This document shows positions 24,101 to 42,728 of a stretch of DNA of 64,000 nucleotides, in pieces; the first letter of the stretch is position 1; each line of letters opens with the position of its first letter. The position numbers and the translations under genes are program-made. The notes below the pieces were generated by a model. It was not told the DNA's origin, did no database searches, and worked only from the letters and a program-made list of their open reading frames with translations. This DNA is from Ceratodon purpureus (taxonomy: Eukaryota > Streptophyta > Bryopsida > Pseudoditrichales > Ditrichaceae): the NCBI GenBank assembly GCA_014871385.1, contig CM026422.1, forward strand, positions 22,189,014 to 22,253,013. Reading direction: 5' to 3'.

Positions 24101-24802
24101 ATACTTGGACCGAAGCCGCGCAAGTGGCATGGCAGCGCCGGTCTCCCCGGACGAAGCAGCACCAAGTATACTCTAACTCGGTGACGCAAGTATACTTCCC
24201 CACTTGCGCCCGAACGTCACAGCCCACGCTCCCTCACTCCCAGTCTCGCCCCCCGCGCCCACCCCCACGCTCCCCCGACCCCCGACCTCACGCCCCCCCT
24301 CCACATCCCCCGCCACCTCAGCTCCCCCCTCCGACATGTCACCCACGTCCCCCTCCACCTCAGCCACGTTCCCCTCCACCTCAGCAGCTCGCGCCGACGG
24401 GGCCGTCCACGTCGGAAAACCCCGCGTACGCGCATCCGACATGGCACCCTGGCTCCTGTCCACATCGGAATTTGGATGGGTTTGACGAATGGGAGCGCAG
24501 AGCGCCTCGCGCGCGACACACTTCGAACACACATACAAGTGTGTCGGGAGAGTCCGCGACGCGCAACAGGCTGCGCGAGCACACGCCGTCGCTGTGTCGA
24601 ATTCGGAGTCGTCTTCGCGTTTCTTCAAGTATCGAGCGATGGCGGGTCGATCGAAGCACTCGAGGAGCTCCTCTTTAAGAAGCGCTAGCGTGATCTCGAA
24701 CGTGATCAATCGGTGCTGTAGTGCGTTTGCTTGTGATCAGTCGAGAGTGGACGCTTTGGCATCGATTGATGCGTTTTTTGTAGTTGGAGAGATTTCGTCG
24801 CG
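24101..24802 (+). promoter_or_regulatory. GC-rich promoter and leader of the DGAT3-like gene
   Basis: Composition jumps from AT-rich to strongly GC- and CpG-rich here. About 24220-24390 is a near-pure pyrimidine tract on the plus strand, with repeated CCACCTCAGC / CCCCCTCC phrases. All six frames look open only because of base composition. The position directly upstream of the DGAT3-like start suggests a CpG-rich promoter and 5' untranslated region. Confidence 0.5.
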
Positions 24803-26092
24803 ATGGAGGCCGTTGCGATGGCGGGGACGCGGGGTGTGGTTGGGGTGCGGGGGTTGGAGAGCTTGCATTCGTTTTGCGGGGATGTGGAGGTGAGAGGGGG
24901 GAGTGTGAGGAGGGCGTTTGCGGATCGGAGCCATGAGAGTTTCTACGCGTTGCGGGTGCGGTGTGGGAAGAAGGAGAAGGGGATGAGGGTTCGCGTCGCG
25001 AAGGTTCAGGAGCTTGTGAAGGCGCAGCGGGAGCTTTTCGTGGCGTCGCGGGAGGAGGGATCCGTTCAGATTGCGATGAGTGATCCGGTGGTGGAGCGGA
25101 TGATGAAGAATTTGCTGGAGTTGCAGGTGGAGGTGGAGGCGTTGAATGTGAAGGGGAAGAAGGGGAAGAAGAGCGGCTCGTCGAGCTCTTCGAGCTCGTC
25201 GTCGAGTTCTTCTTCGGAGTCGAGTGAGAGTGATGATGTTGGGAAGGCTATGGTGGGCGTGAAGGCGATGAGGGTTAAGGGGGGGAAGAAGAAGAAGGGC
25301 GGGTCGTCTTCTTCGTCGAGCTCGTCTTCGTCGTCGTCGTCGGAGTCGAGTGATAGTGATATGGGGAAGGCTGTGGACATGAGAGGGTTACGGAAGAACA
25401 GGGGCCTGATGAAGGAGATGATGGTTCCCGCCGCGGTTGCTGCCCAGGCTGTTTCTTCGGTTAATTCAATTGCGACGGCGCCTGCGGATACCTCCGCGCC
25501 TGGAATGCCACCATCGGTTATCTCGGCAGAGCGAATCGCTGCAGGGATTTCAGCAGCGGTGAGTACCAGTGGTGATGACCTGGAGGAGGAGCCTGCGATC
25601 GTTTCGCAGATCAGAGCGATGTGCAGCACGGCGAGTGCTTCGACCTCAGCGAACACGAGAGAGATTTACACCAGGGGACCTATTGAGCTGAAGGAGACTC
25701 CCAGTGGGAGAGTCATTGTGGAGCCTGTCCTGCCGTCTGTTGTTGCCCCTGTTTCTGTGGATGCCAGCACCAGTGGTAAGATTGAAGTCTGCACGGTAGG
25801 CAAATGCAGGAGGGGAGGTTCGCAGCAGATCCTTGCCTCGTTGCAAGAGAGCATACCTGATTCGTCGAATATTTCGGTGACATCGTGCAAGTGTATGGGG
25901 AAGTGCAAGAGTGCCCCGAACGTCCGTGTGAAGAACAGCGAGGGCCAAACGCAATTACACAGCCATGTCTCCGTGGATGATGTGGATACTCTGCTTGAGT
26001 TTCACTTCGGTGTGCAGTCTTCTGGAAACCTAGGCAGTGCAATGCCTGTGTTGGTTGCAAGCATCGATTATGATACGGTTGCTGCTGCCTAG
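24803..26092 (+). CDS. DGAT3: DGAT3-like soluble acyltransferase with thioredoxin-like [2Fe-2S] domain
   Basis: This single-exon gene encodes 429 residues. The C-terminal domain (about 326-405) has the thioredoxin-fold [2Fe-2S] cysteine pattern: Cys330-x4-Cys335 and Cys362-x-Cys364-x3-Cys368 (CKCMGKC). An upstream Ser/Lys-rich region ends in SSESSDSDMGKAVDM, and residues 329-345 read EVCTVGKCRRGG. Both match my recollection of Arabidopsis DGAT3, a soluble Fe-S protein linked to acyl-CoA:diacylglycerol acyltransferase activity. The Lys-Ser block occurs twice (about 117-145 and 158-186), an apparent internal duplication. The N-terminus is Arg/Gly-rich and could be a plastid transit peptide, since several plant members are plastid-predicted. 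The start is the first ATG of the frame, just after the GC-rich leader. The acyltransferase role is inferred from the family. A plain ferredoxin-like protein is the alternative. Confidence 0.85.
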   Translation: MEAVAMAGTRGVVGVRGLESLHSFCGDVEVRGGSVRRAFADRSHESFYALRVRCGKKEKGMRVRVAKVQELVKAQRELFVASREEGSVQIAMSDPVVERMMKNLLELQVEVEALNVKGKKGKKSGSSSSSSSSSSSSSESSESDDVGKAMVGVKAMRVKGGKKKKGGSSSSSSSSSSSSSESSDSDMGKAVDMRGLRKNRGLMKEMMVPAAVAAQAVSSVNSIATAPADTSAPGMPPSVISAERIAAGISAAVSTSGDDLEEEPAIVSQIRAMCSTASASTSANTREIYTRGPIELKETPSGRVIVEPVLPSVVAPVSVDASTSGKIEVCTVGKCRRGGSQQILASLQESIPDSSNISVTSCKCMGKCKSAPNVRVKNSEGQTQLHSHVSVDDVDTLLEFHFGVQSSGNLGSAMPVLVASIDYDTVAAA

Positions 26093-27279
26093 ATTCCGAA
26101 GCTGGCCGATGACTACGGAGTTTTGATTTGATTTGACAGTCTCATCAGTTTGTCAATATAGTTGTGTAAATACTAGCTTGCGTTAGGAGCACGGATCTGG
26201 ATCTTCTTACTTGTCCCGCATCAAAAATAGGCTGCGAGACAAAGCCGGCCCGAGTGTAATCATAGCGGTCATACCGATTTTATATCTTCAACGCAATTGC
26301 TGAAGATTGTAACATTTTTGAGGACAATAATTCGAGAATATCTCCGAGCACATCATGGCTCAGTTTCCAAAGATAACTATCACTCAATTCTGATTGTCAT
26401 GGCTTCTGGTGTGTTATAGAGAAGGTCCTGATTCAAGTTTTTATTCTTAGTGCCCGAATCAGGCTTCTCGTTGTGCTGGACAAGCTCCGATCCAAAGAAC
26501 GAAGTTATAAACTCTTCGAAAAGCGCTCGGCAAAAAGAGATGGGAGAACAGGGTACCGGAGAAAGATGGAGTATTGCCCTTGATGACTAACATGTAATGT
26601 CATAGGTACATGTCTTTTGCGTGCTGTTATTCCTCGTCCATTTCAGAGCAAAACGACGCCTATGTAAAAGCAATGTGCTCATCTAAGAATTTGTTCGATT
26701 TATCCATCTGTTGTTTGAAAACAAAAATATTTTTCTATTTGTGATGTAGAAAAGCGACACAGAGGTCAGTGTCATAATCTACGAGAAGCCATGGGTGACT
26801 CCCAGTTAGTCGGGAAACGACCATGCCGATTGAACGATACACCTTCTGGTACTGCACCACTGACGGTGTTCAGTTTTACAGTTGGGAGAATGTTCCGTAG
26901 TTGGTGAGGTGAGCCTCAATCTCTTCCCATCTATTTTCAGCGACCATTTTTTTCACAAGCAATTTATAGTATTTTGGCGGACTCTGTCCACTTGACAGGA
27001 GCAGGTACCATATCCGAGTCGATCTTTTTACACTTCGGATTGAGTCCTGAAAAACCTGTTAACGTTTCTAAGACCGGTGGTGATGAATACATTAATCTGT
27101 CCGGCCCATAATTACGTGGGTTGACAAATCCTTGTGGTAGGGCGTGTCATGTGTGGCCACGATGAAATTTTGTTTTAATTAAGGGAAGTGTAACTAATAC
27201 TAAGGCAAATCATCTCCCAGTCTCTGGAACCTTTTGAAAACCAGGATGTCAATCTGATCGCTTGTAATATTATTGAATT
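26093..27279. other. DGAT3 3' flank and spacer
   Basis: This stretch holds the probable 3' untranslated region, then non-repetitive sequence of balanced composition. No coding region or RNA gene was recognised. Confidence 0.4.
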
Positions 27280-29673
27280 CCACAATCTTTTCATGTCCTT
27301 CCTGCACTGGCATGTGGAGTGGTGTAAACTAGTCAAATTCATCGGTATTTCCCCGGTCATGCCTTAGGCGAGCAGTTACAAGCACCTGGCCAGCCTTCAG
27401 AGTGGCTCATGCAAATGCAGACATAAGCATACAATGAGCACGTATATTGCCCTAGGCTGGCACTTGCGTCAAGCCAGATATTGAGCATTGAGAGATCTTT
27501 TCAACACTTCGCCTGGTGTAGGAGCTGATTACAGTAGATGGCAAAAACTTTGAATATTTGGCATTCATCATTTCATTAAAAATTGCCCTCGCGGGCATGG
27601 ACTATCCACTTTGTACATGAGCACGCTGAAGGTATGAAAGCTGGTTTTTAAAAAAAATCTGCAAATCACTACTAATTGGTATTATGAGACACTATGAACA
27701 CTACCTCTATAGCTCAACTGATTTTAGCTTGAATGATCTCATCTAGTGTACATGTATTGTGTTATTCCAGCAGATTCACTGATGTGAGCTGGGTTGTCTA
27801 ACACAAGTATAATACTCAAAAGACATTTTAAGTGACAGCAATATGTCATCGCTAGATGAATGCTGGCATGTTTAACCAAGGCCTGCTAGATCACCATTTA
27901 TAAGCTCGTAATTCAATTGATATCACGCGCCACTCTTGAGAAGGTTTCATCATCTACCAGCCCTGTGGCCACCGGCTGGGAGCCGAGGAGTGGGAAGAAA
28001 CGGCAACTGCACCTTGGGTGCTGTTGTGAGGCTGGCACCAGCCCTGCAGCGGCCACCTCGTCTCCTTGTCCACCGTGAAGGCCCTGCCGCTCTCCTCCGC
28101 CACGAACTGCTCGTCCAGCTCCAGGTGCGACTCGTCGCCGCTCGACCAGCCCTGCACGGGCCACCTGTTGGTGCGGTCTACCGTGAAGAGGTGGAGCTTG
28201 CCCAACTTCTCCTTCAGGCCAAATGACCTGGAGGGTGAGTCCGACCCGGCCACGGCTATGGTGGTGGCCGCCCCTGCTCCCGTCATCTTCATCTTGCAAT
28301 GATCCGGAGTGTGAGCTAGTGAGTGACAAATTAAATTGTAACAGTTCGTACGCACTAGGTAGCTGGAGGTTGTGCTAAGTACGTCTCAAATGGTAACACA
28401 AGCAAGTTATAATGAAAACTAGAATCTGAAGCCGCCGAGTTCAAGCTCGAGACCGGATGTGTGTAGCTCGTGGTGGTGATAAGTTTCTTCATGGAAGCTC
28501 AACCATGATTCCACATTCGGCAAGTCAATAGTAACAACACCTACTGTACCGACTCGGTAAGGCTATAGTTGGAAAAATGATTTAAGCACCTGCTGCAACT
28601 GTGCAGATTGGCCTAGTCCGTTACGGAGGTAACCCCGGGAAAGGGACGAAGGAAAGAATGTGACCCACAGTGTTGAGGTCTGTACTCTCGAAGGCTGCAC
28701 CTCCTCATGCATGGAGTGTTATCTGGATCATCATTGATGATGGTGCAGAATCAAAGCAGATGTGGAGAAGAGTCTCATGCCAAACTAAATGTTGATAGAA
28801 AAGCACCTCCCGTCGCCTGGGCGACCTCCTCTGATTCCGCCTCACCTGGTTCCATGATCCAACTTTCAGGTCGCACATGTTTTTTGTTTCCCTGATTTCG
28901 TGTTGACCCAGCTTAACACGCTGCACTTCCTGCTTAATGTTGGAGACAATTGATTCGAAGCATACCGTAGTTTACAGTCAGCTTTAAGTCCATAAATAGT
29001 TAAAAAATCGAAAAAACATTGTTTTGGGAAATAAACTTCAATGTTACAACTCAAAAAATTACAAAGTTTGGGTGAAGAAATGAAATTTTTAGATTTAAAA
29101 AGAAAAAATAGATGAAAATTTATAAAGTTAATAGTGATATAGGTTTTGGTTGGTTGATTGCAAACGTAATAAATGTTATTTTCATGGTAAAAATGAAGAT
29201 TGGGTGAAACAATCTTGAAAATTCAAAAAGCATCACTTCCTGAATTTTTATGTGACCGGCTGAAACTTTTTTGCTCTCTGCTCACTGTTCAATGCTGCCA
29301 CAGTAGCTCTGTTACATAAACAAGCATATTTTGCAAGAGCTCTTGGCACTGGAACCATGTATAATTTGGTTGCAGTTCATCACTTTACGTGCTCGGAGGC
29401 TGTGAAACAAATCCACTCTCCATTGCTCCAAGACAACACAACCCATCCATTTGCGTCACCTTCAACAGGCCATGCACTTGGCCGTGAACCCGGCGATGTG
29501 GAACTGCTCCCTGATAGTAAGCTCAAAACTGACAACTTCAACGCGTGATAATTTCTCGGAGAGGAGACGAGTTGACACTACAGTGGTCACGCACATGTCT
29601 ATCATAAGTTTTAATAATGATTTTAAAATCACTGTGATAGAACGAGTCCGCCTTTAGTTCCTCACGATATGAC
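27280..29673 (+). repeat. Segmental duplication, copy A
   Basis: This 2.4-kb block matches 31158-33713 directly, at roughly 90% or better by eye, and includes a complete small gene on its minus strand. Copy A lacks about 159 bp present in B (equivalent to 32323-32481; A junction near 28468) and about 20 bp near 28488. Offset between copies is 3854 bp at the gene. Confidence 0.9.
27954..28292 (-). CDS. Triple RWP-(x)-QGW small protein, copy A
   Basis: The frame encodes 112 residues from the ATG at 28292 (MKMTG...). I do not recognise the family. Two similar repeats of the form FTVD(R/K)xxRWPxQGW carry RWPVQGW and RWPLQGW at about residues 43-49 and 79-85. The protein ends exactly on a shortened third motif, RWPQGW. 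Between repeats 1 and 2 lies an acidic linker. There is no signal peptide and no membrane segment. It differs from copy B at five residues, all in the N-terminal or C-terminal variable parts, while residues 13-93 are identical. The sequence aligned with the TATA box of copy B is deleted here, so the gene may be silent or use another promoter. Confidence 0.7.
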   Translation of the reverse strand: MKMTGAGAATTIAVAGSDSPSRSFGLKEKLGKLHLFTVDRTNRWPVQGWSSGDESHLELDEQFVAEESGRAFTVDKETRWPLQGWCQPHNSTQGAVAVSSHSSAPSRWPQGW

Positions 29674-29683
29674 GACAACGTCT

Positions 29684-29830
29684 AACAGATCAGGAAATTC
29701 TTTCAGAGGTTATTGTGGGTATGGTTGGACTCAGTCTCATACTTCCGAGGAGGTGGGGACTTGCGTTTTCGACTCTTGGCATATTCTCTCCCACAACTTC
29801 GGCCACATGCGCAATTGCATGCCCGAAGGT
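29684..29830 (+). repeat. Segment inverted relative to 33746-33891
   Basis: About 147 bp directly after duplication copy A is present in inverted orientation just after copy B. Landmarks are 'aacagatcaggaaa' at one end and 'gcaattgcatgcc(c/g)gaaggt' at the other. It marks a rearranged duplication boundary. Confidence 0.85.
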
Positions 29831-30254
29831 CTACACAGCATGGGAAGTTGTCATATCTTTCTAACAATACCAAATTTTACTTTCATCGGACTCGTATTTC
29901 AGAAATAATTCATGTTGAAAGATCAAAATTCAATTCAATGCCGTTGGGTAGGTTTGTGGCTAATGGGAGTGGAGTACCAAATCTGCCCTTCTTGGAGGGA
30001 AAGAGGTTTGAATAAAGGGTTGGGCAGCATTTGGAGGGACTAAAAATGGTCTTGGGTGTCATGGGATACCAAACGGTTGACACTTCCCCACACCCACAAA
30101 GACCTTAGACATTCAAGTTTGAGGAACCCAAAAAAAATTCAGTTAAAGATTTTGGTGAAAAATTGGAATCCTTTCTTAGCTTGGACAAAATACACTCACT
30201 GAGTCCTATGCAAATAGACCTTGAAACGAATCCTATGCTTACAGATAATTTTCA

Positions 30255-31070
30255 ATGTCCAAGCAAATGTGCGGTATGCACATAGACACTGTCAAATCAG
30301 TGTACAGCGAACACCTCGTAGCACATCAAGGGGCTCCTCCCACGCATCACCTCATCGGAGTTCACAGCAAACACATCGCTGACAACACCGAGCACCTCAA
30401 CTACTGTATCACCTTGCACCTCGCAGGCAACATCACGTTCCACCTTCGACATCAGTTTCGGGGAGCTGCAGCTTCGGAGTCGCAGAAGACTTGAGCAGCG
30501 ACTTCGAATGCAACAGGAGGCTGCAGTTTTGACTTCATCATCATCACCGTCATCGACCGTCGTCGACCTGATTACCTTCAACAATAACCACCATCACCGT
30601 CATCGACCTGATTACCGTCATCACCATCATCGACCTCATCACCATCGTCGACCTGATCAACATCAACGACTTCAGCAAGGGGGAGGTCGGCAGCGACCAG
30701 CGGCATCGACGGTGATAAAGAAGACAACATCAGCGGCGGTCAACATCGCCGACTTGATCAGTGGGACGGCACCATCAGCCACCAGCCGTCACCACCATCA
30801 GCGGCAGCCTCGGCCCTCGACTTCGACCACCATCATCCAGCTTCGAGGGCACACAGTCAACGTCGACTGCGACGCCGTCAACTCATAGGTCGACACCGTC
30901 ATCTCCGACTTCGGCAGCGTCCTCTTCGACTTCGACATCGACCAGCTTCGGCGATCTGCATCGGATCAAATCAGGGAGGGCGACATCAACAACAACAGGG
31001 ACCTGCACCGACGGCAACATCAGCAACTTCGCGGACCTGCAGCTAGGAGCGCATTATCAAGGTTGAGGAC
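30255..31070. other. GC-rich low-complexity island between the duplicates
   Basis: About 0.8 kb is rich in C and A on the plus strand and repeats short phrases such as 'atcgacctgat', 'caccatca' and 'cttcgac'. Several overlapping frames stay open (for example a His/Arg-rich one at 30508-30888), but none has a family match. It is read as degenerate low-complexity or decayed coding DNA. Confidence 0.5.
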
Positions 31071-31807
31071 CTGGAGCGACAAAGCTAAGCTGCGGCGACA
31101 CCATCACATTCAGGGAAAGTGCTTTCAGGTGAGATGCAGCCTTAAACAAGGCGCTATCCACAATCTTTTCATGTTCTTGATGCACTGGTATGTGGAGTGG
31201 TTTATACTATGTCAAAGTCGATTCATTGCTCGCTATTTCCTTGACATGCCTAGGGCAAGCAACAAGCACCTGGCCAGCCTCCAGAGTGGATCATGCAAAT
31301 GCAGACAGAAAACATACAATGAGCACGTTCGTTGCCCTAGGCTGGCACTTGCGTCAAGCTCAGATATTGAGCATTCAGAGGTCTTTGCAACACTTCGTCT
31401 AGAGTAGGAGCTGATTACAGTCATGAGTGGCAAAAACTTTGAATATTTGGCATTCATCATTTCATAAAAAAATGCCCTCACGAGCAATATGGACTATCCA
31501 CTTTGTACATGAGCACGCTGAAGGTATGAAAGCTGGTCTCTTGCAAAAATCTGCATATCACTACTATTTGGTATTATGAGATTCTAATAATGTTAATATC
31601 ATCTAGTAATTGTATTGCATTATTCCAGCAGATTCATTGATGTGAGCTGGGTCGTCTGACACAAGTATAATATACTCAAAAGACATTTTAAGTCACAGCA
31701 ATATATCATCGCCAGATAAAAACTGGCCTGTTCCGCCTGCTCGATCACCATTTATAAGCTCGCAACTCGATTGATGTTATAAGCCACTCTTGAAAAGATT
31801 TCATCAT

Positions 31808-32146
31808 CTACCAGCCCTGTGGCCACCGGCTGGGAGCCGAGGGGTGGGAAGAAACGGAAGCTGCACCTTGGGTGCTGTTGTGAGGCTGGCACCAGCCCTG
31901 CAGCGGCCACCTCGTCTCCTTGTCCACCGTGAAGGCCCTGCCGCTCTCCTCCGCCACGAACTGCTCGTCCAGCTCCAGATGCGACTCGTCGCCGCTTGAC
32001 CAGCCCTGCACGGGCCATCTGTTGGTGCGGTCTACCGTGAAGAGGTGGAGCTTGCCCAACTTCTCCTTCAGGCCAAATGACCTGGAGGGCGAGTCCGACC
32101 CGGCAACGGCCATGGTGGTCGCCGCCTCTGCTCCCGTCATCTTCAT
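31808..32146 (-). CDS. Triple RWP-(x)-QGW small protein, copy B
   Basis: The 112-residue product starts at the ATG at 32146 and has the same plan as copy A: MKM start, basic segment SRSFGLKEKLGK, RWPVQGW, acidic linker SSGDESHLELDE, RWPLQGW, Ser-rich linker, terminal RWPQGW. The repeated Trp/Pro/Gln/Gly motif and absence of a targeting signal suggest a cytosolic or nuclear protein. The function is unknown and none is proposed. Upstream lie TATAAAA at 32441-32447 and a G-box CACGTG at 32480-32485, so the gene looks transcribable and perhaps light- or ABA-responsive. Nucleotide changes against copy A in the core are all synonymous, which suggests selection on the protein. Confidence 0.8.
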   Translation of the reverse strand: MKMTGAEAATTMAVAGSDSPSRSFGLKEKLGKLHLFTVDRTNRWPVQGWSSGDESHLELDEQFVAEESGRAFTVDKETRWPLQGWCQPHNSTQGAASVSSHPSAPSRWPQGW

Positions 32147-32440
32147 CTTGCAATGATCCGGAGTGTGAGCTAGTGAGTGACAAATTAAATTGTAACAGTT
32201 CGTACGCACTAGGTAGCTGGAGTTTGAGCTAAGTACGTCTCAAATGGTAACACAAGCAAGTTGTAATGAAAACTAGAATCTGAATCCGCCGAGTTCAAGC
32301 TCGAGACCGGACGTGTGTAGCTAGCTGTAAGTGATGACAATCAACTACTGCAAGTGTCCGACTTGTGCACGAGAGAGAGAGGATGAGATGTGATTCAAGA
32401 TGATGGGAATGCTTGAAGAGAAATATAGCATTCTCTGCAG

Positions 32441-32447
32441 TTTTATA
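32441..32447 (-). promoter_or_regulatory. TATA box of RWP-QGW gene B
   Basis: The minus strand reads GGCTATAAAAC, about 295 bp before the ATG at 32146. Gene C has TATAAAAG about the same distance (299 bp) from its ATG, which supports both. Copy A lacks this segment. Confidence 0.7.
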
Positions 32448-32479
32448 GCCTGACTTGTGAGGGAGATGGAGATAATTGG

Positions 32480-32485
32480 CACGTG
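32480..32485 (-). promoter_or_regulatory. G-box (CACGTG) upstream of gene B
   Basis: A palindromic CACGTG lies 32 bp upstream of the TATA box in the context CCACCACGTGCC. Gene C has the matching context CCACCATGTGCA at a similar place, with one base changed. bZIP or bHLH factors bind such boxes, often in light- or ABA-regulated plant genes. Confidence 0.5.
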
Positions 32486-33745
32486 GTGGTGATAAGTTTC
32501 TGAGTCACATTTTAAGCAAGCTCATGGAAGCTTAACTATGATTCCGCATTTGCCGAGTCAATAGTAACAACACCTACTGTTTCACTGTACCGACTCGGTT
32601 GGGCTATAGTTGGAAAAATGATTTAAGCACCGGCTGCAACTGTGCAGATTGGCCTAAGCCGTTACGGAAGTAACCCCGGGATAGGGACGAAGGAAAGAAT
32701 GTGACCCACAGTGTTGAGGTTTGTACTCTCGAAGGCTGCACCTCCTCATGCATGGAGTGTTATCTGGATCATCATTGATGATGGTGCAGAATCAAAGCAG
32801 GTGTGGAGAAGAGTCTCATGCCAAACTAAATGTTGATAGAAAAGCACCTCCTGTCGCCTGGGGCGACCTCCTCTGATTCCGCCTCACCTGGTTCCATGAT
32901 CCAACTTTCATGTCGCACATGTTTATTGTTTCCCTGATTTCGTGTTGAACCGGCTTAACACGTTTCACTTCTAGATAGTGTTGTTGTTATAATGTTGAGT
33001 CGAAGCATAGCGTAGTTTACAGACAGCTTTGAGTCCATAAATATTTTTAAAAAAAATTAAAAAATTTTGCTTTGGGAAATTAACTTCAATGTTACAACTC
33101 AAAAAATTATAAAATTTGGTTGAAGAATTAAAGTTATGAGATTGTTTTTAAAATAGTTCAGATGAAAATTCATAAAAATTAATACTGATGTTAGTTTTGG
33201 TTGAGTGCAAACGTAATAAATGACATTTTCATGGTAAAAATGAAGATCTGGTTAATCAATCTTACAAATTCAAAAAGCATCACTTCCTGAATTTTTATGT
33301 GACCGGCTAAAACTTTTTTGCTCTCTGCTCATTACTCACGGATCAATGCTGCCACAGTAGCTTTGTTACATAAACAAGCATATTTTGCAAGAGCTCTAGG
33401 CACTGGAACTATGTATAATTTGGTTGCAGTTCATCACTTACGTGGTCGGAGGCTGTGAAAATATCCACTTCCCAACACAACACAACACGTCCATTTGCGT
33501 TATCTTCAACAGGCCATGCACTTGGTGAACACGGTGATACGGAACCGCTCCCTGATAGTAAGCTCATAACTGACAACTTCAACGCTTGATTTCTCGGAGA
33601 GGAGACGAGTTGACACTACAGTGGTCACGCACATGTCTATCATGAGTTTGAATAATGATTTTAAAATCACTGTAATAAAGAACGAGTCCGCCTTTGGGTC
33701 CTCATGAGATGACTTTGGCCTAGTAGTAGGTAAATGAGATCACAC

Positions 33746-33891
33746 ACCTTCCGGCATGCAATTGCGCATGTGGCCGATGTTGTGGGATGAATATGCCAAG
33801 AGTCGACAACGCAAGTCTCCACCTCCTTGGAAGTATGAGACTGAGTCCAACCAAATCCACAATATCGGCTGAAAGAGTTTCCTGATCTGTT
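33746..33891 (-). repeat. Inverted copy of 29684-29830
   Basis: This is the reverse complement of the segment after duplication copy A, placed at the distal end of copy B. Confidence 0.85.
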
Positions 33892-34887
33892 AGTACATAA
33901 GCTGCGGGAGTTGGAGCAAGTTGTCAACTGGATCATTGTAAAGGGATGATGGAGCTACTGCAAGACGAGGATCTCACTCACAGTTGGCAAATTCTTTGGA
34001 GGTGATGCTCACTGTTTGAGGCGCGTCTGTTTGTTTCGTCCAGCTAAGAGTTTGGGGAATGCAGCCTGGTGGTTGAGTAAAAAGTAATTCTCTGTTCCGA
34101 TTGAGCATGAATGAAGCAGAAACTTTTGACACACTTTGACAATGACAATGGATCGATCTGCAATACTTAACGTCTCAGGCAATGATCGCATAGAAAATAT
34201 GAGCCTCTTTCAAGGCACAATGTTCCGTTTTCATGAGACAACCACACCTCATATTACATGGTCATAAATTGCAGGTGCCCATGTTCTTGATGATCAAGGG
34301 AATTGGGATTATTAATGCTTAACTGTCTTCAAATTCTGGATACTTGCCTTTGAAGAGCCGTTTCTTCTTCATCGGGACTCCAATAATAGTGAAAGTTGTT
34401 GGATTCAATTCTGGTTTTGTGATTAAAAACTCCAATGTAATTCAAAATGTTGTCAACATCTAGAAAGAGTTTTTGTATGGGGGGTCTAGTCTTTGCCTCT
34501 TTTTGCTTTGTGGGATTTGGGAATTTTTTTGACATTGGATAATTTGGATAGTCAATTTTGGATAAATTTATTATTATTACAAGTATAAATATGTATTTAA
34601 GATGATCGTAAATAACTTTAAGTTGAATCATTTATATTGTAAGAAACTTAGAAATATAAATTCAACTCCAAAGTGCTTACATCCAAATTTTAGATTTGTT
34701 TTCATTTTTTTCAATTAAAAATTATAATCTTCCAAATTATGAAGCTTCAAGAGCCCAAACTTGATTTACATCATCTTCAACAAGATTTCCATATCTCACT
34801 TCCATTTATACACATGGAACTTTTAAAAGCAACAGGAATCATAAATCAGTCTTGGCTTCAGTCAGATTGCTCAGTTTAGGTTCAGTA

Positions 34888-35276
34888 AGGTATACACACC
34901 CATGAGGGATCACTTACCCATGAGGGATCAGTAGGCTTCCCCATTCCAGAGCAATGGGAAACTAGTAAAGGATAATTGATGAACAGTAGATTTAGGGTAT
35001 TTCCTCCAATAGAATGCCTCTGTGAGTGTGACGGAATCTGTTTATTTACTCATCTGAGTATGGTCGGTCATTGGTACACCTATATGTCAATCATGGGTAA
35101 CACTAACTTTTGGACAAAAAAATTTGTAGTAATTTGAATTTTACTGAATTAATTTTGAAAAAATGCTCATTCTTCATGAACCTTATGATACTACGTGCAA
35201 AAAATAACTCCTTATTGAAAACCCAAGATTTACTATAGTGAAATGCTTAAGTGATCGGTCATAGGTGTGTATACCT
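34888..35276. mobile_element. Small TIR element with TA target duplication
   Basis: The termini form an inverted repeat of about 28 bp, starting AGGTATACACACC at the left and ending GGTGTGTATACCT at the right. TA flanks both sides (34886-34887, 35277-35278). The interior is 389 bp without a coding frame. TA duplication suggests a Tc1/mariner-type miniature element. Confidence 0.7.
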
Positions 35277-35652
35277 TAGTACCCCTTCACCAAGTTGGGC
35301 GCATTATCCCAATTCCAACACTAAAAGCACGGCCATGACAATTACATACATGAATATTATACAAAACAGTTCATTCACGACGTCAAGGGCTTCCAAATCG
35401 GCGTCCACAAGTGCTGACAACCATGAGTAAACAATAACATTAAACAAATCAAGTTCATATAAAACCACTGTTTACTTTACTGTTCTGCAACCTCCAAAGC
35501 ACAGTGGCAGCAGGTGCTCACAAATTGCGCTGCCGTGTTGTTACTGTTAACTACGTAATCCTCCATTGTGAGCATAGAAAGTCAAAAGAGAATTGAAACG
35601 CCCATGGATAATTAATGTCCACCACCATGTGCAAACCTCCAGATCTGAGTTC

Positions 35653-35660
35653 TATAAAAG
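35653..35660 (+). promoter_or_regulatory. TATA box of RWP-QGW gene C
   Basis: TATAAAAG lies 299 bp upstream of the ATG at 35952, in the same relative position as in gene B. A short upstream ORF (35856-35894, 12 codons) would fall in the leader. Confidence 0.65.
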
Positions 35661-35951
35661 CCTCCCTCTCCTCATCAAATTTCAAAGCATTCCAATCGTC
35701 TCAAGCTCTCATCTACCTTCGTACATCAGTGTTGCCGCATTCAGCATTCCATTAGCATTCAGCACACCAATTTGTTCAGCTCTTAGTCCATATTCATATC
35801 CATTGCCAGCATTATATTGTAGCGCTCATCATTTCAGCTTGTTCCGAGTCCCTTCATGGTTTCTTCATTGTTTCAAGAGTCGATTCGGATTTAGATCCTG
35901 TGAGTGATTCAACCAACTTGTTGTGCATTTGGTCACTCGCGGTCGGGAAAG

Positions 35952-36272
35952 ATGAAGATGGTGTCAGCAGCAAAGAAGGTAGCGCCAGCTGAGTCACCCT
36001 CCGGGTCATTCAGCCTGAGGGAGAAGTTTGGGAAGATCCACCTCATCTCGGTGGACCGCAACAACAGGTGGCCGGTTCAAGGTTGGTCGAGCGGAGATGA
36101 TTCACACTACGAGCTTGACGAGAAATTTGTTGCTGGAGAAACCGCAAGGCCATTCACCTTGGACAAGGAGACGAGGTGGCCCTTGCAAGGGTGGTGCAAG
36201 GGCTCACAAGCTGACTTGGAGACTGTTTCCGCAGAGCGCTCTGTTCCCAGCCGATGGCCCCAGGGCTGGTAG
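35952..36272 (+). CDS. Triple RWP-(x)-QGW small protein, diverged paralogue C
   Basis: The 106-residue product starts MKMVSAAKK at the ATG at 35952 and ends at a stop directly after RWPQGW. It shares the whole plan with A and B: basic FSLREKFGKIHL, RWPVQGW, acidic SSGDDSHYELDEKF, FTLDKETRWPLQGW, then the terminal RWPQGW. The N-terminus and the Ser-rich linker have diverged. Outside the coding region and core promoter there is no obvious similarity to the A/B duplication, so C is an older copy, in opposite orientation. Retention of the three motifs and intervening acidic segment is strong evidence that this is a real protein family. No function is known to me. Confidence 0.8.
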   Translation: MKMVSAAKKVAPAESPSGSFSLREKFGKIHLISVDRNNRWPVQGWSSGDDSHYELDEKFVAGETARPFTLDKETRWPLQGWCKGSQADLETVSAERSVPSRWPQGW

Positions 36273-38582
36273 AATGGAAGAACGGTTTTGACACGAGATA
36301 TGGAGTCCAGCTTTGATTTATTTCACACTTCAGATTTTTTTTTGTTTTTCCGTTGGAACTCTGCCTTGCTCACAGCTCCATTGCTTGACATGACCGTGAC
36401 ATGCCAAACGGTACCCCTTCTTAGTTTGTGATTACTCTGCAGTCTGCAGCAGAGTTGACAGAGAGCGTACATATTAGAAAATTTCTTCTTCGTTCAATCG
36501 CCATTGAGATGTATAAATTTTGTTCTCATGTTTTGATTTGTATTAGAGGGTTTCCGTGCATCATCTTCAAATAAATTGGTGATTACCATGATTTGACTTC
36601 ATAAATCTGTGACTCCCTCTCCAAACTTTAGACGGACAACAGGCTGTCTAGAGTGTCTATGTATATTTTGTGATTTTGATGTATGAGCGGTAAAACATTT
36701 CAAGGTAATAAGAATTTTTATCACTCTTTTTGAATCTTCAGCAACAATCAACATTCCAGTCTAGGGGATGATACTGTTAATATACGAGTGTTTTTGTCCC
36801 TCGCTCCTTGACCTTCGAAGATACGCACTGTCGCTACTAAAGACGTTGCCAAACGCTACGCTATACTCAGGTCGCATAAGCCCAGGTCATCAATTCTCTA
36901 CAGTAGTTAGGGCTCCAACTCTCTACTAACATTTCCGTTAACAATTCACCACAAAACACAGGTTATATTCACAACTTATTTTGCCAACCGATAATCTTAA
37001 TCAAAGTCGAGTAGTTTCCTTCAAGTACGCCACGTGGATTTTAACAACATCGCCAATTAAGCCAGAACAACTGTAGCAGTGGATAATTTAGAATGAACAT
37101 GCGACCCAAGCCATCTAGGGCCAAGGATAACGTTCGCACTACAGTGATCGGGGTCAAGCTCGCAGTCTAAAGATAGGCTGCGCTTCCAATCTACCCAATT
37201 ACCCATGAAGATTTGAACATGCTCATAACCAGCCCCTTCCCCCCTTCGAGACAGATAGGGATAACCTGCAGAATTGAATCAGGGGTTCCAGCAAGGGATC
37301 AACAAGAAGCAGGCATGTCCAGTGGGTGTCCAGGAGATGGAATAATACCTGTCAAACGATAACACAGAATGATCCCCACTGCATCATTCCTGCATTTACG
37401 TCGCACCCAATTTACTTCAGGCGTAGTTGCTTGTTTACATCTATCCGCAGCTGTGGCACTTCCTGTTGATAATCTTCTTTCACCCTGGAGGAGTTGAATC
37501 GGTTTAAAATTTGCAGAGGTTCACGTCTCTCACACATGATCTGCAATTCGCGAACAAGAAACCCGTGCTCACTGCTGGTCAGCCGAGAACGCTGGACGTA
37601 TGAACCATGCTTTCTCTGCTGTTCCTAATGATGTAATCCCTGGCTTCGGAGAAGTTCGATTGATAGCGATAAAAGAGTTGTAATGTGTTTCGCTTCTTCA
37701 GTCTCAGCGCAGGAGTCCCTTTCAAAATCGAGCGTTATAAGAGCATGCTTCAAGTATTTGATGGCGTTCCTAAATTCCTGCAATACCACCTTGTGAATTC
37801 CAGTACACCACCTGACATGGATAGCCATTCAGGAATCAGAAATTGCTACAAATGTGGTTCAAACCTAAATCTTTCAAAGCGACATCCAAACGTTGCTGCT
37901 GGAGAAAACAAGCCAACTAGATGTGTGATCAGCAGAGAAACGAAAATGTCCCAAAAATCACATATCACTCAACGGCTATATCAGATTCGTTCATCTGGAT
38001 TTCACCGCCACATGCATATGTTGAAAGAACAAAAAAATAGTGCGATTTATCTTCAAGCTGTAATCAGTATATATTATTCAACACTGGCTTTTGATCATTC
38101 GGACCTTCATCGAGGCAATTTCCTATAAAACCTAATCACCTATGATGTAGTTTATTCACAATAATTCTAGGTCTTCCTTGTCACTCCATCGCCATCGCCA
38201 TCATGTAGGACTATTAGGTCATACCACATGGAAAGAAACAAATACTCTCCCTCCCGCATGCAAAAGCTACACCGACGTACATCGCTATGAAATGGCAAGC
38301 AAGAACCTAGAGCTTCCTTCCGTCCACCAGCCTCATGAATTCTACTGCTTCCGTGACAAGACCCAGTCTCAAAATGGAAGGGTACATATGCAGAGAAACT
38401 CAACCAAAAAATCTACAAGTGCGCGCCTCCTCCTCTCACTCACAATAACAGACCTATCTTGCCATTACGTCATCATTCCACTACCCCTCAATCCTACAGA
38501 TATCATATTAAAGTTGATGCATCACATGGACATACAATGATCTACCTCAGAAAACACCACCTCCAAATGATTGAGGCAAGAT
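36273..38582. other. Spacer between gene C and NADP-MDH
   Basis: The sequence is mixed in composition. Apart from one possible minus-strand exon (37625-37777), nothing is recognised. The part nearest 38582 is probably the 3' untranslated region of the MDH gene. Confidence 0.4.
37625..37777 (-). CDS. Possible 3'-terminal exon of an unidentified gene
   Basis: After a possible acceptor (ggtggtattgcag) the minus strand reads EFRNAIKYLKHALITLDFER..., 50 residues ending in a stop at 37625. The helical, TPR-like character and gene-like codon use suggest coding sequence. I could not find upstream exons, and the plus-strand frame over the same bases is less protein-like. It may be a fragment. Confidence 0.25.
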   Translation of the reverse strand, partial: EFRNAIKYLKHALITLDFERDSCAETEEAKHITTLLSLSIELLRSQGLHH

Positions 38583-39956
38583 TTAGAGCTCCCCGGGCAA
38601 CATTGTGTCTCCCTCGGGAAGGTCACAGTAACCATTGTCCTGGCCGATGAGGTGCGCGACGCACTTCTTCTCCGCAACGAGCTCGTCCTCGCTCTTCTTA
38701 ATGCGCTCACGCAAGTAGTCATCCACCTCGCAATCAGTCACAAGCTCCCAGCTGCCATCGCCAGTGGAGCGACACGGCATGCTGAAGATGATATCCTCAG
38801 CAATCCCATATGGGTTTCCATTCGAGTACACCCCTGATGAGAACCAGTCACCTTCTGGGGTGGGAGTGATCAAAGACTTGATGGCGTCAGCGATCGACAC
38901 GGCGGTAGAAGCGGCAGACGATCGTCCCCACTTCTGGATAAGAGCCCCTCCTCGCTTCTGCACCCGCGGGGTGAACTCCTCCTTCAGCCACTTCTCGTCC
39001 TGGATCACGTCTACAACCCTAGCGCCATGAATCTTAGCGTTCAGGAAATCGGGCACCTGCGTGGTGGAGTGGTTACCCCAGATGGTGACATTGGAGACGT
39101 TGTCGTAGAAAACGCCGGCCTTGAGGGCTAACTGACACTTAGCCCGATTCTCATCCAACCTAGTAAGCGCGTGGAAATTAAGGGGGTTGAGAGAAGGCGC
39201 ATTCTTCAAAGCGATGAGAGCATTCGTGTTGCATGGGTTACCCACCACGAGCACCTTAACATCTTTGCTCGCAGCCTTATCCAAAGCTTTCCCCTGCTGC
39301 GCGAAGATCTGCCCATTAATATCAAGCAGATCGGCTCTCTCCATACCGGGACCACGAGGCTTCGCGCCGATGAGAAGCGCCCAGTCCGCATCCTGGAAGA
39401 CCTCCTCTGCGTCGATCCCGATATTCACCTCCCGCAACAGAGGAAAGAGCGAGTCCTCCAACTCCATAGCCACCCCCTCAAGCGCATCACGGCTCCTCTC
39501 CGACCCCAGCAAGTTGAGCGCAATGGGCTGGTCCTGGCCGAAAACCTCCCCAGAGGCCAGCTTGAACAGCAAGTGGTTCGCAATCATACCCGCAGCACCC
39601 GACACCGCGATGCGCACCGTCTTCTTCCATGTCTTCGGCCGCTCCCCCTCCTTCAAATCATAAGTCACACAAAACACACCAAAGCACTGCCCACCCTTCT
39701 GGCTCTCCGCAACCCCGTTCGCAGTCTTCTCCGGCTCACTCACAGTCGACTTCTCAGTCGTACTCGGCGCAACATACGCCACCACACCACGCCTCCTCTG
39801 CGACACCGCCTTCACCCCCGCCCCAACCACCACCTTCCTTCCCAAAAACGCACTGGAGATCACATTCCCACCCTCCACCTTCACAAACACACTCCCGTTC
39901 ACGCTCCCCGCCGCCACCGCAGCCGCGCTCCCCGCAACAGCAGCCATCGCAGCCAT
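38583..39956 (-). CDS. NADP-MDH: Chloroplast NADP-dependent malate dehydrogenase, intronless
   Basis: The enzyme reduces oxaloacetate to malate with NADPH in the plastid stroma and exports reducing power (malate valve). The 457-residue frame runs unbroken from an Ala/Val/Ser-rich transit peptide (about 1-75) to GDTMLPGEL. Seen in the sequence are the N-terminal regulatory cysteines Cys91 and Cys96 (CFGVFC), the nucleotide-binding loop [26 protein letters not shown], the catalytic-region IWGNHSTTQ, and the C-terminal cysteines Cys432 and Cys444, 12 apart as in sorghum. Both thioredoxin-controlled disulfides should therefore form, with the C-terminal tail blocking the active site when oxidised. 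Flowering-plant genes for this enzyme have many introns, so the single exon is notable. There is no A-tract downstream to prove retroposition. The start is the first [12 protein letters not shown]. Confidence 0.95.
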
Positions 39957-40785
39957 GTCTAGAATCTAGACAAGAAACAAGAAAACCAGTCTCACCACCT
40001 CCCAGACTCCGGCAACCTCCAAAGCTCCCACCTTTCTCCAGCAATTGGCCCCAAAGTTCAAGCGCGGCGATGATTTGACACAACAAAGGAGCCAAACAAC
40101 CACCCAACAGTGGGCACCCGATGATTGGCGCGCCGGTGCTAGCTCAATGGTGTGGTGCGAGGGAAGCCTTCGCCTAGTCGCTGATGATAAGATCCAATTG
40201 GTCGGGCACTCACAACCAATTGTACTGCCGGCTTTGATTATTGAACTCACAACAAAGCCACCAACCTGACAAAAAGCCTGGTAGTAGCTTCAAGCTCTAG
40301 CAGCCTTTCTGCATTCAACTCGAGGACAAAACGAGAAAAGTTTGATATGAATCTAGAACCTTGCAGCATCGCCGGTGGTTCAAACTAGCAAAATCCAGCG
40401 GCTGGATGTGAAGTTAGAGTAATTGGGATCATGATCAGGTCATGATAGTAGGTAGTGAATTGATGCGCAGTGTGCTATGTTAAGTCGGGTGGAAATTTAC
40501 GCAGCATGTGGGAGGATAGAGATGAGATGGAGAGCGGCCCACGTGGTGGATGGGGTGGCCTGAGTGGCTGTAGTTGGAAGCGTAAGTGGTGGTGGAATTG
40601 GCAAAAGCTGGGAGGAGCTGCGATGGAGCTGGTAATCGAAACTTCGGTCGGAAAGCGAGTCCAGAGTCCGTGGCGAAGAATTCTCATCGCGGTTAATCGA
40701 GGTCGGGATCGAAGGTGGCGATCGTTCGGCGACTGCGAGCGCTGGTGTCCTTGCGGGCGTGATGCGTCGCGTGGGTGCGCCGGGC
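39957..40785 (-). promoter_or_regulatory. Upstream region of NADP-MDH
   Basis: This GC-balanced stretch directly precedes the MDH start on the minus strand and probably contains its leader and promoter. No separate gene was recognised. Open frames here continue into the minisatellite. Confidence 0.4.
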
Positions 40786-40940
40786 GGGGCGGTGTGAAAC
40801 GGGTTTCTGGGTGGGGCGGTGTGAAACGGGTTTCTGGGTGGGGCGGTGTGAAACGGGTTTCTGGGTGGGGCGGTGTGAAACGGGTTTCTGGGTGGGGCGG
40901 TGTGAAACGGGTTTCTGGGTGGGGCGGTGTGAAACGGGTT
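40786..40940. repeat. 27-bp minisatellite upstream of NADP-MDH
   Basis: Five identical 27-bp units (starting ggggcggtgtgaaacggg) begin at 40786, 40813, 40840, 40867 and 40894, followed by a partial sixth. Identity between units suggests recent expansion. The array lies about 0.83 kb upstream of the MDH start codon. It gives repeated nonapeptides in open frames but no gene. Confidence 0.95.
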
Positions 40941-42728
40941 CTAGGATGGTATGTTTGCCGGTGTACGTTTTTTTCTTCTCTCATTATGTCTTTTCCATTT
41001 CGGCAAAAGGTAGTAACACTTAAAACCGCCACTTTAACTCTGTGCCTACTTCCTATTTTTAGAAATTTCAAATTTTTGAATTTTATTATGAGCAAGTTCA
41101 AGAGGATTAATGCATCAAAGAATGTATGATTTGAATATAGTATGCAAAAGTTGGAAAGGGTCAAAGTTTTACTGGTAAATAATCTGAAATTGTCATCTAG
41201 TTTATCAATTAATGATCAAAAAGTACAATTTAGACATGGGCAGGAAACCATTTTGTATTTGACTCAAAATTGGGTGTCACTACTTTAACCTTGTAGAATT
41301 GTCTATGGTCTTGATTCTTAACACAAATCATGCAAGTGGATGGATGAATATGGAGTGCTAAAGAATGCACGTCTTATTTAGGATAATGAACAATCCTATG
41401 AATAGGCTTTGTGATGAAATATTGGCCATTATAAAGAAATGGTAAGAAAAGAATTTATTTGATGGGAGCCTCAACCAATAGCTTACTGAATCATAGATTT
41501 TATTTCCAACGTATCATACCCAATTACAACACCAATACTTTAGTGATTCTATAAAAGCATACTACATGATGACAAAAATACTCGGTATAAAGCACTGATA
41601 AGGAGTGCTTGTACACATACACGTTCCTGATTTTCTTGAAGGGTGCCTTTAGGTTACAATCCTTGGATCATTTGAGTGTAGTATAGTTGTTCCTTTGTAT
41701 ATCAAAATAAGAGCCAATACTTTGTCAAAATATTCATTACAATGCTATATTGGTTATGGCAAACCGTACAACATATTTCTACAAGAATCGAATGAATTAG
41801 AACCACTTACACAATCTTTCAAAACTTAAATTCTATGGATAATATATCAAAAATATGAACATTGAATATCAAAAACAACTCACTAAAATTAGCACATTGC
41901 TCAAGAACAATTTTGATTTTAGATCAACTTTAAGTATTTTTGATATAATACATTGACATACTTCTCACCACCGACTACTTGCTCTACTAATTTTTACCAA
42001 CTTCCTCTCTTAGAAAAAAAGTCTTTGGCTCTTTAGATAAAGTCTTCACACAAAATGGGAAGGAATTGGATGCATCCATCCATACAATGAACAAATTGTA
42101 CATCAAGCCCTTCACTAGACTAGACTTTATGCACAACTTGACTTTAGATCCGTTACTATATTCACCGTTCTCGAAAGGAAACAGATCTATAATATTTTTG
42201 TTCTATATATTTTTCATTTTTTTAACACACAAGTCATTGCATACCTTCTATTAAACCTTTATACTAATAGAATCTATAATAGTAGATTTTATCAATTGTG
42301 AAGTATCCAATATGTCTTCAAAACTACCAATTGAATCACAAAAAAGCATATAATATCTATATTTATCATTTATACTATCAAAATGCAAACATATGCTCCC
42401 AATTACAAAAACAAAGACTTTTTACTCTATTAAACCTATTTAAGATCAATAGTATGTATGATGTCTCTCTCAAATGCTTTGCAAGTTTATAGTGTCTTAT
42501 AAAGCTAATACTAAGCCATAGTTGAATTTGTACTTTAAAGACATTCTTGAGCAAAAATTAAGGCTAACTTGATATATTCCATGCATCCATTCCTCACCAA
42601 AATAAGAATTAACAACTATTAAGTATTGGTTGAAATCAACTCTATTCAATGTCTTCCTTAACACAATCTCTAAGCAAAGTTTGGTTAACTCAAAAGAGCT
42701 CATTTGTTTGTTATCTTTAGACCCTACA
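40941..42728. other. AT-rich spacer, possibly decayed element
   Basis: No intact coding frame is present. The composition and flow continue on the far side of the hAT-like element (after 46853), consistent with the element having inserted into older repeat DNA. Confidence 0.4.

Follow-up and report, generated by a model that had tools for sequence, protein, structure and literature searches.

Among the described systems closest to the proteins considered here are the Argonaute hooks, which are reported to be disordered and to consist mostly of GW and WG motifs, two or three tryptophans being enough to engage one Argonaute (AGO) protein (PMC10991848). A hook is annotated from a threshold of three motifs and a Wsearch score of 6 or more, and typical hooks are described as holding tens of motifs, in variable repeats with the tryptophan conserved in specific contexts, within larger proteins (PMC10991848). 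A second system is that of the burpitides, among whose precursors the split precursor ArbA2 is listed under PF10950 (PMC11253845). Here, we analyze a stretch of 64,000 nucleotides (nt) from the moss Ceratodon purpureus (GenBank assembly GCA_014871385.1, contig CM026422.1, positions 22,189,014 to 22,253,013 of the forward strand), hereafter the window, in which three small genes, copies A, B, and C, encode proteins that each carry a tryptophan motif, RWP(x)QGW, three times. We tentatively propose that these small plant proteins act as intracellular, trivalent linear-motif adaptors, a reading that we regard as plausible rather than probable.

Three Genes Carry an Invariant Tryptophan Motif

An earlier note on this DNA, made from its letters alone, had described three genes for proteins of 106–112 residues, and the open reading frames match that description exactly in coordinates and strands:

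27954..28292, minus strand, coding sequence of copy A, 112 amino acids, open frame without interruption
31808..32146, minus strand, coding sequence of copy B, 112 amino acids
35952..36272, plus strand, coding sequence of copy C, 106 amino acids, a diverged paralogue (66% identity)

The proteins of A and B are 96% identical, and each gene probably consists of a single coding exon. A pattern scan placed the motifs as follows:

28146..28166, minus strand, motif 1 of A, RWPVQGW
28038..28058, minus strand, motif 2 of A, RWPLQGW
27957..27974, minus strand, motif 3 of A, RWPQGW, C-terminal
32000..32020, minus strand, motif 1 of B, RWPVQGW
31892..31912, minus strand, motif 2 of B, RWPLQGW
31811..31828, minus strand, motif 3 of B, RWPQGW, C-terminal
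36066..36086, plus strand, motif 1 of C, RWPVQGW
36174..36194, plus strand, motif 2 of C, RWPLQGW
36252..36269, plus strand, motif 3 of C, RWPQGW, C-terminal

The exact C-terminal RWPQGW that had been claimed is present in all three proteins, and the stop codon directly follows it in A, B, and C. A six-frame pattern scan of the whole window found no RWP(x)QGW outside these genes, and when protein C was shuffled 200,000 times, one motif arose in a single shuffle and two or three motifs in none. The tryptophans of successive GW pairs are spaced by 36 and 27 residues in A and B and by 36 and 25 in C (counted by eye from the sequences). Two FTxD lead-ins had been described for each protein; this holds for both repeats of A and B, which read FTVD, and for repeat 2 of C (FTLD), but not for repeat 1 of C, which reads ISVD (ISVDRNN).

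A and B match C at every one of the 20 motif residues, and the 20 motif codons show 10 (A–C) or 11 (B–C) silent differences and no replacements. Given that 70 of 106 residues are identical overall, the identity of the motifs between A and C has a hypergeometric P of 8e-5, a value to be read with the knowledge that the motif limits were set after the alignment had been seen. Outside the motifs, 15 of 21 residues are kept in the acidic linker that joins the first two repeats (linker 1), 12 of 22 in the N-terminus, and 7 of 19 in the second linker, whose length varies from 19 to 21 residues. These figures bear out the earlier observation that the tryptophan motifs and the acidic linker persist in C while the rest drifts. 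The strings RWPQGW, RWPVQGW, RWPLQGW, RWPxQGW, QGWSSGD, ETRWP, and DRxxRWP were absent from the full texts searched, a search that did not cover figures and supplements.

The degree of invariance bears on one alternative, in which the proteins are Argonaute-hook proteins whose three GW pairs fill the tryptophan pockets of one Argonaute, recruiting it or competing for it in RNA silencing. With three GW per protein they have the minimum number of GW/WG motifs, and the idea merits attention, since two to three tryptophans can be enough (PMC10991848). However, the arginine, first tryptophan, proline, and glutamine of the motif vary no more than the GW does, which would go beyond what a hook needs, and RWP(x)QGW is wholly invariant (20/20, in the three sequences compared), unlike the variable repeats, tens of motifs in larger proteins, that are described for typical hooks (PMC10991848). 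We consider a hook unlikely; were these proteins hooks after all, they would be trivalent and unusually small.

Selection on the Three Copies

Over 106 codons, the A–C comparison counts 40.5 synonymous and 52.5 non-synonymous changes, which corresponds to a ratio of non-synonymous to synonymous substitution rates (dN/dS) of 0.237 by the Nei-Gojobori method; the same method gives 0.182 for B and C. The constraint is uneven along the protein, with an A–C dN/dS of 0.084 in alignment columns 27–87 (61 codons) versus 0.62 in the other 45 codons. In an ungapped block of 70 codons, the reading frame of the genes has the lowest dN/dS of all six frames, 0.127 for A–C and 0.088 for B–C, with Fisher p values of 3e-9 and 3.8e-12, respectively, which are rough as they come from rounded counts. 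One antisense frame of this block is also low, less strongly so (0.31 for A–C and 0.23 for B–C).

Between A and B there are 6 synonymous and 5 non-synonymous changes (dN/dS 0.24), too few to rely on. Their coding sequences are 96.8% identical (328/339) versus 88.2% (1832/2077) in the aligned flanks (p 2e-7); as a proof of selection this divergence is weakened, since the 400 nt directly upstream are nearly as similar (95.3%, 381/400). Much of the A–B excess in the coding sequence is thus common to the adjoining DNA, and the case for selection rests on the A–C and B–C comparisons. Values of 0.18–0.24 overall and of 0.09–0.13 in the ungapped block show A, B, and C to be real genes under purifying selection, with the motif strongly constrained.

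Sequence Relatives and Predicted Structure

Pfam-A returned no family for any of the three proteins among matches up to E 10, a cut-off at which the HMMER filters still drop most weak matches. This agrees with the earlier note, which knew of no named domain with this pattern; a match to a characterised domain, which it had named as evidence to the contrary, did not appear in the libraries searched. In NCBIfam, acylphosphatase (best E 0.0078) and 6-phosphogluconolactonase (E 0.073) were matched by A and B only (two of the three proteins), and we read both as chance because C keeps the motif and yet has no match. A single PHROGs family, of unassigned function, was matched by C alone (one of three, E 0.15), and STIM1 was matched in the PDB by the profile at E 0.46; both were likewise read as chance. 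The 305 pattern matches in viral contigs yielded none confirmed at E 1e-3, the 22 in prokaryote contigs yielded none confirmed, and protein C had no match in phage records. The family is without a convincing relative in the libraries searched (Pfam-A, NCBIfam, PHROGs, PDB, viral, prokaryote, and phage).

The PDB search raised the possibility of a distant kinship with the complex I subunit NDUFS4, found at E 0.47 with a single sequence and, as the best match of the profile, at E 0.054, in an alignment to RW..P..GW.SSGD of repeat 1. The profile matched three nearly identical chains only, which we take to be from Drosophila. Distinct NDUFS4 sequences in the PDB library number 26 (at E 0.001, with a 56-residue stretch of the matched chain as the query), and 7ar7, 7a23, and 6x89, presumably plant complex I, are present in it yet unmatched by the profile at E up to 10. 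Moreover, the Pfam family of NDUFS4 itself, whose accession we take to be PF04800, was not among the results, no family having been matched up to E 10 by any of the three proteins. As only the chains of what we believe to be one species were found and the presumed plant chains were not, the kinship was dropped as chance, and we hold it to be extremely improbable.

All three proteins are hydrophilic, with a grand average of hydropathy of −0.62 to −0.76 and no long hydrophobic stretch, and the N-terminal 9-mer of highest mean hydropathy reaches 1.3 to 1.6. Judged by hydropathy only, the N-terminus is without strong hydrophobicity, in line with the earlier claim that a targeting signal is missing. 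A secretory signal peptide is a feature of split burpitide precursors, and an N-terminus without strong hydrophobicity would speak against an alternative in which each protein is a precursor cut at the motifs, releasing tryptophan-containing peptides that are perhaps crosslinked like burpitides. Repeated short units ending in tryptophan, with spacers, would suit such a precursor, and stand-alone split burpitide precursors do exist (PMC11253845). BURP (PF03181) and PF10950 are both out, because Pfam matched no family in any of the three proteins; in addition, a BURP-like CH pattern (three CH pairs) occurs in none of the six unspliced frames of the window, a scan that does not exclude intron-split genes, and conservation extends to the spacer joining the first two repeats. 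These points weaken the case for a precursor, which we regard as quite improbable.

Structures of B and C, whose prediction the earlier note had suggested, were modeled with AlphaFold2 in two runs (C first and B first). Neither run gave a confident fold, the mean predicted local distance difference test score (pLDDT) being 35.8 and 35.2, under 36 in both, and the predicted template modeling score (pTM) 0.20 and 0.14. This missing fold fits flexibility only weakly, because each alignment holds three sequences. The models also bear on the alternative of a small folded domain, in which repeats 1 and 2 would be the halves of a compact, tryptophan-rich beta fold, the linker and the C-terminal motif would be packed on it, and the tryptophans would be mainly structural. 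Short strands at 28–32 and 67–70 were predicted in one of the two models, with pLDDT under 50, the FTVDxxxRWP lead-in would suit a beta strand, and linker 1 is kept as such a fold would lead one to expect. The low pLDDT and pTM argue against it, though they come from three sequences, as does the lack of PDB sequence matches below E 0.05; furthermore, the C-terminal motif hangs on the linker of variable length, 19–21 residues. We find a folded domain of this kind rather unlikely, and it would be one unrecorded in Pfam-A.

A Candidate Trivalent Docking Protein

As trivalent adaptors, the proteins would present three near-identical tryptophan motifs along a hydrophilic chain that would for the most part be flexible. 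The first two motifs follow an FTVDxxx-like lead-in and are connected by the conserved acidic linker, and the third stands at the extreme C-terminus. Each motif would dock through its R-W-P and G-W side chains into a pocket of a folded partner, be it a single molecule or several copies of it, and together the motifs might raise affinity or bridge partners. The protein would probably be located inside the cell. A motif kept letter for letter three times, with its third copy at the C-terminus and with the N-terminus and the second linker drifting, forms the pattern expected of a multivalent docking protein.

Three points weigh against this proposal. In the Uversky charge-hydropathy comparison, B and C fall near the boundary and A on the folded side, so that disorder is only a possibility. 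Linker 1, kept at 15 of 21 residues, would be unneeded by a pure string of motifs and agrees with repeats 1 and 2 forming a folded unit. Finally, as there are three sequences, of which two are nearly identical, the conservation is in effect one comparison, that of A and B with C. What the earlier note had observed is confirmed, and the function that we propose is inferred from sequence.

A broader claim, possible and in our view doubtful, is that the family, perhaps limited to one land-plant lineage, is defined by an undescribed docking motif, RWP(x)QGW, in exactly three copies, the last of them ending in the C-terminal carboxylate; some plant partner protein would then be expected to have a tryptophan-reading pocket that is as yet uncharacterised. 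Should the motif serve as a docking peptide, the partner could be fished directly by short-peptide pull-down (for example, with FTVDKETRWPLQGW), which would give a function to a family unseen by the domain libraries searched.

Duplication and Upstream Regions

Copies A and B lie in longer duplicated units, whose limits are those of the BLAST blocks:

27279..29673, no strand assigned, duplicated unit with A
31157..33713, no strand assigned, duplicated unit with B

The units are about 2.4–2.6 kb long, in the same orientation, and roughly 4 kb apart from start to start, and A and B are the products of a tandem duplication. Copy C, in turn, is an older, inverted paralogue. Synonymous divergence (dS) from C is near saturation, at 1.06 for A and 1.35 for B; the long BLAST alignment between C and the other two copies falls in the coding sequence and ends one base beyond the stop, and the remaining matches are of 18–22 nt, one of them a common upstream block of 20 nt. 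Just outside the two units there is a 105-nt inverted pair, 91% complementary (29682–29786 and 33789–33893), which may mark how the duplication arose. Between the units, at 30545–30937, lie imperfect tandem repeats whose open frames are rich in His and Arg.

The following elements were located around the genes:

32441..32448, minus strand, TATA box of B, CTATAAAA, beginning 302 nt before the ATG, putative promoter element
35652..35659, plus strand, TATA box of C, CTATAAAA, beginning 300 nt before the ATG, putative promoter element
32406..32414, minus strand, AAGCATTCC block of B, possible transcription start region, about 33 nt past the TATA box (hand count)
35685..35693, plus strand, AAGCATTCC block of C, possible transcription start region, about 32 nt past the TATA box (hand count)
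32626..32645, minus strand, upstream block of B common to C (18/20 nt), the best B–C upstream local match
35499..35518, plus strand, upstream block of C common to B (18/20 nt) and A (19/20), from local alignment
32323..32481, minus strand, upstream stretch of B, 159 nt, that includes the TATA box and start block, not in A (A junction near 28468–28469)
36570..36575, plus strand, AATAAA, possible polyadenylation signal of C

Besides these, B and C have in common an upstream GTGTTGTTACT block and an upstream CACCACCA(C/T)GTG block. Compared with 500 dinucleotide shuffles, the score of the best upstream local match was reached by 2 of 500 for B–C and by none of 500 for A–C, and the promoter similarity by local alignment is modest. 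Upstream of C there are two TATAAAA sites, at −299 and −494, and the positional agreement between B and C uses one of them. As the 159-nt stretch with the TATA box and start block is present in B and its elements are found in C, a deletion in A would be the simplest account. Copy A may have a damaged promoter in front of an intact reading frame, and may be poorly expressed or use another start.

The upstream regions also touch on the alternative of a hydrophilic, stress-protective protein like the late embryogenesis abundant (LEA) proteins, in which the tryptophan motifs would aid reversible self-association. A G-box, CACGTG, is present with the TATA box upstream of B; none was found upstream of A or C (C has CATGTG). 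The proteins are small, hydrophilic, and charged, which would suit such a role, and genes that lack relatives in other plants are described as enriched among those responding early to cold in the moss Physcomitrella (PMC4301180). Nevertheless, there was no Pfam match, LEA and dehydrin families included, and the exact conservation of the motif points to a specific partner more than to a bulk property. We see in a LEA-like role a minor possibility.

Other Features of the Window

Of 10 open reading frames of the window given to Pfam, 3 were matched and 7 were without a family. Those matched encode a lectin receptor kinase (Lectin_legB and Pkinase), a malate dehydrogenase, and a protein with a thioredoxin-like 2Fe-2S domain. 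We take the exons at about 12.6–16 kb to be those of an auxin response factor; two of them were given to Pfam and had no match. No tRNA (ARAGORN) and no Rfam family at gathering score was found in the window. The thioredoxin-like 2Fe-2S domain lies near the end of the open reading frame at 24770–26089, in which a 126-nt unit, repeated twice in tandem at 25126–25376, gives two long serine runs. The malate dehydrogenase frame (38586–39965) is an open stretch of 460 codons without intron and has cysteines in a C-terminal extension, which presumably resemble those of the chloroplast NADP enzymes. At 40782–40940, a 27-nt unit is repeated 5.9 times at 99% match and is open in several frames (e.g., VKRVSGWGG repeats in 40464–41126).

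Comparison With Known Systems

The likeness to NDUFS4, the 18 kDa subunit of complex I, is confined to the short RW..P..GW.SSGD resemblance at E 0.054. WW domains share the spaced tryptophan and proline with a strand-like segment such as FTVD; the proteins described here differ in lacking a Pfam match and, presumably, in a shorter spacing from aspartate to tryptophan. With the burpitide precursors, both split (ArbA2, PF10950) and fused to BURP, they have in common small repeated units ending in an aromatic residue, whereas here the spacer is conserved, the N-terminus is not strongly hydrophobic, and there is neither a Pfam match nor a BURP-like pattern in the unspliced frames of the window. 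Plant Argonaute-hook proteins such as NRPE1, SPT5L, and SPT6L are alike in their short, repeated Trp-Gly motifs, and the three GW of our proteins reach the threshold for motif number. While theirs is a tail of many variable repeats, A, B, and C are stand-alone proteins of 106–112 amino acids built around an invariant motif with two tryptophans in each copy.

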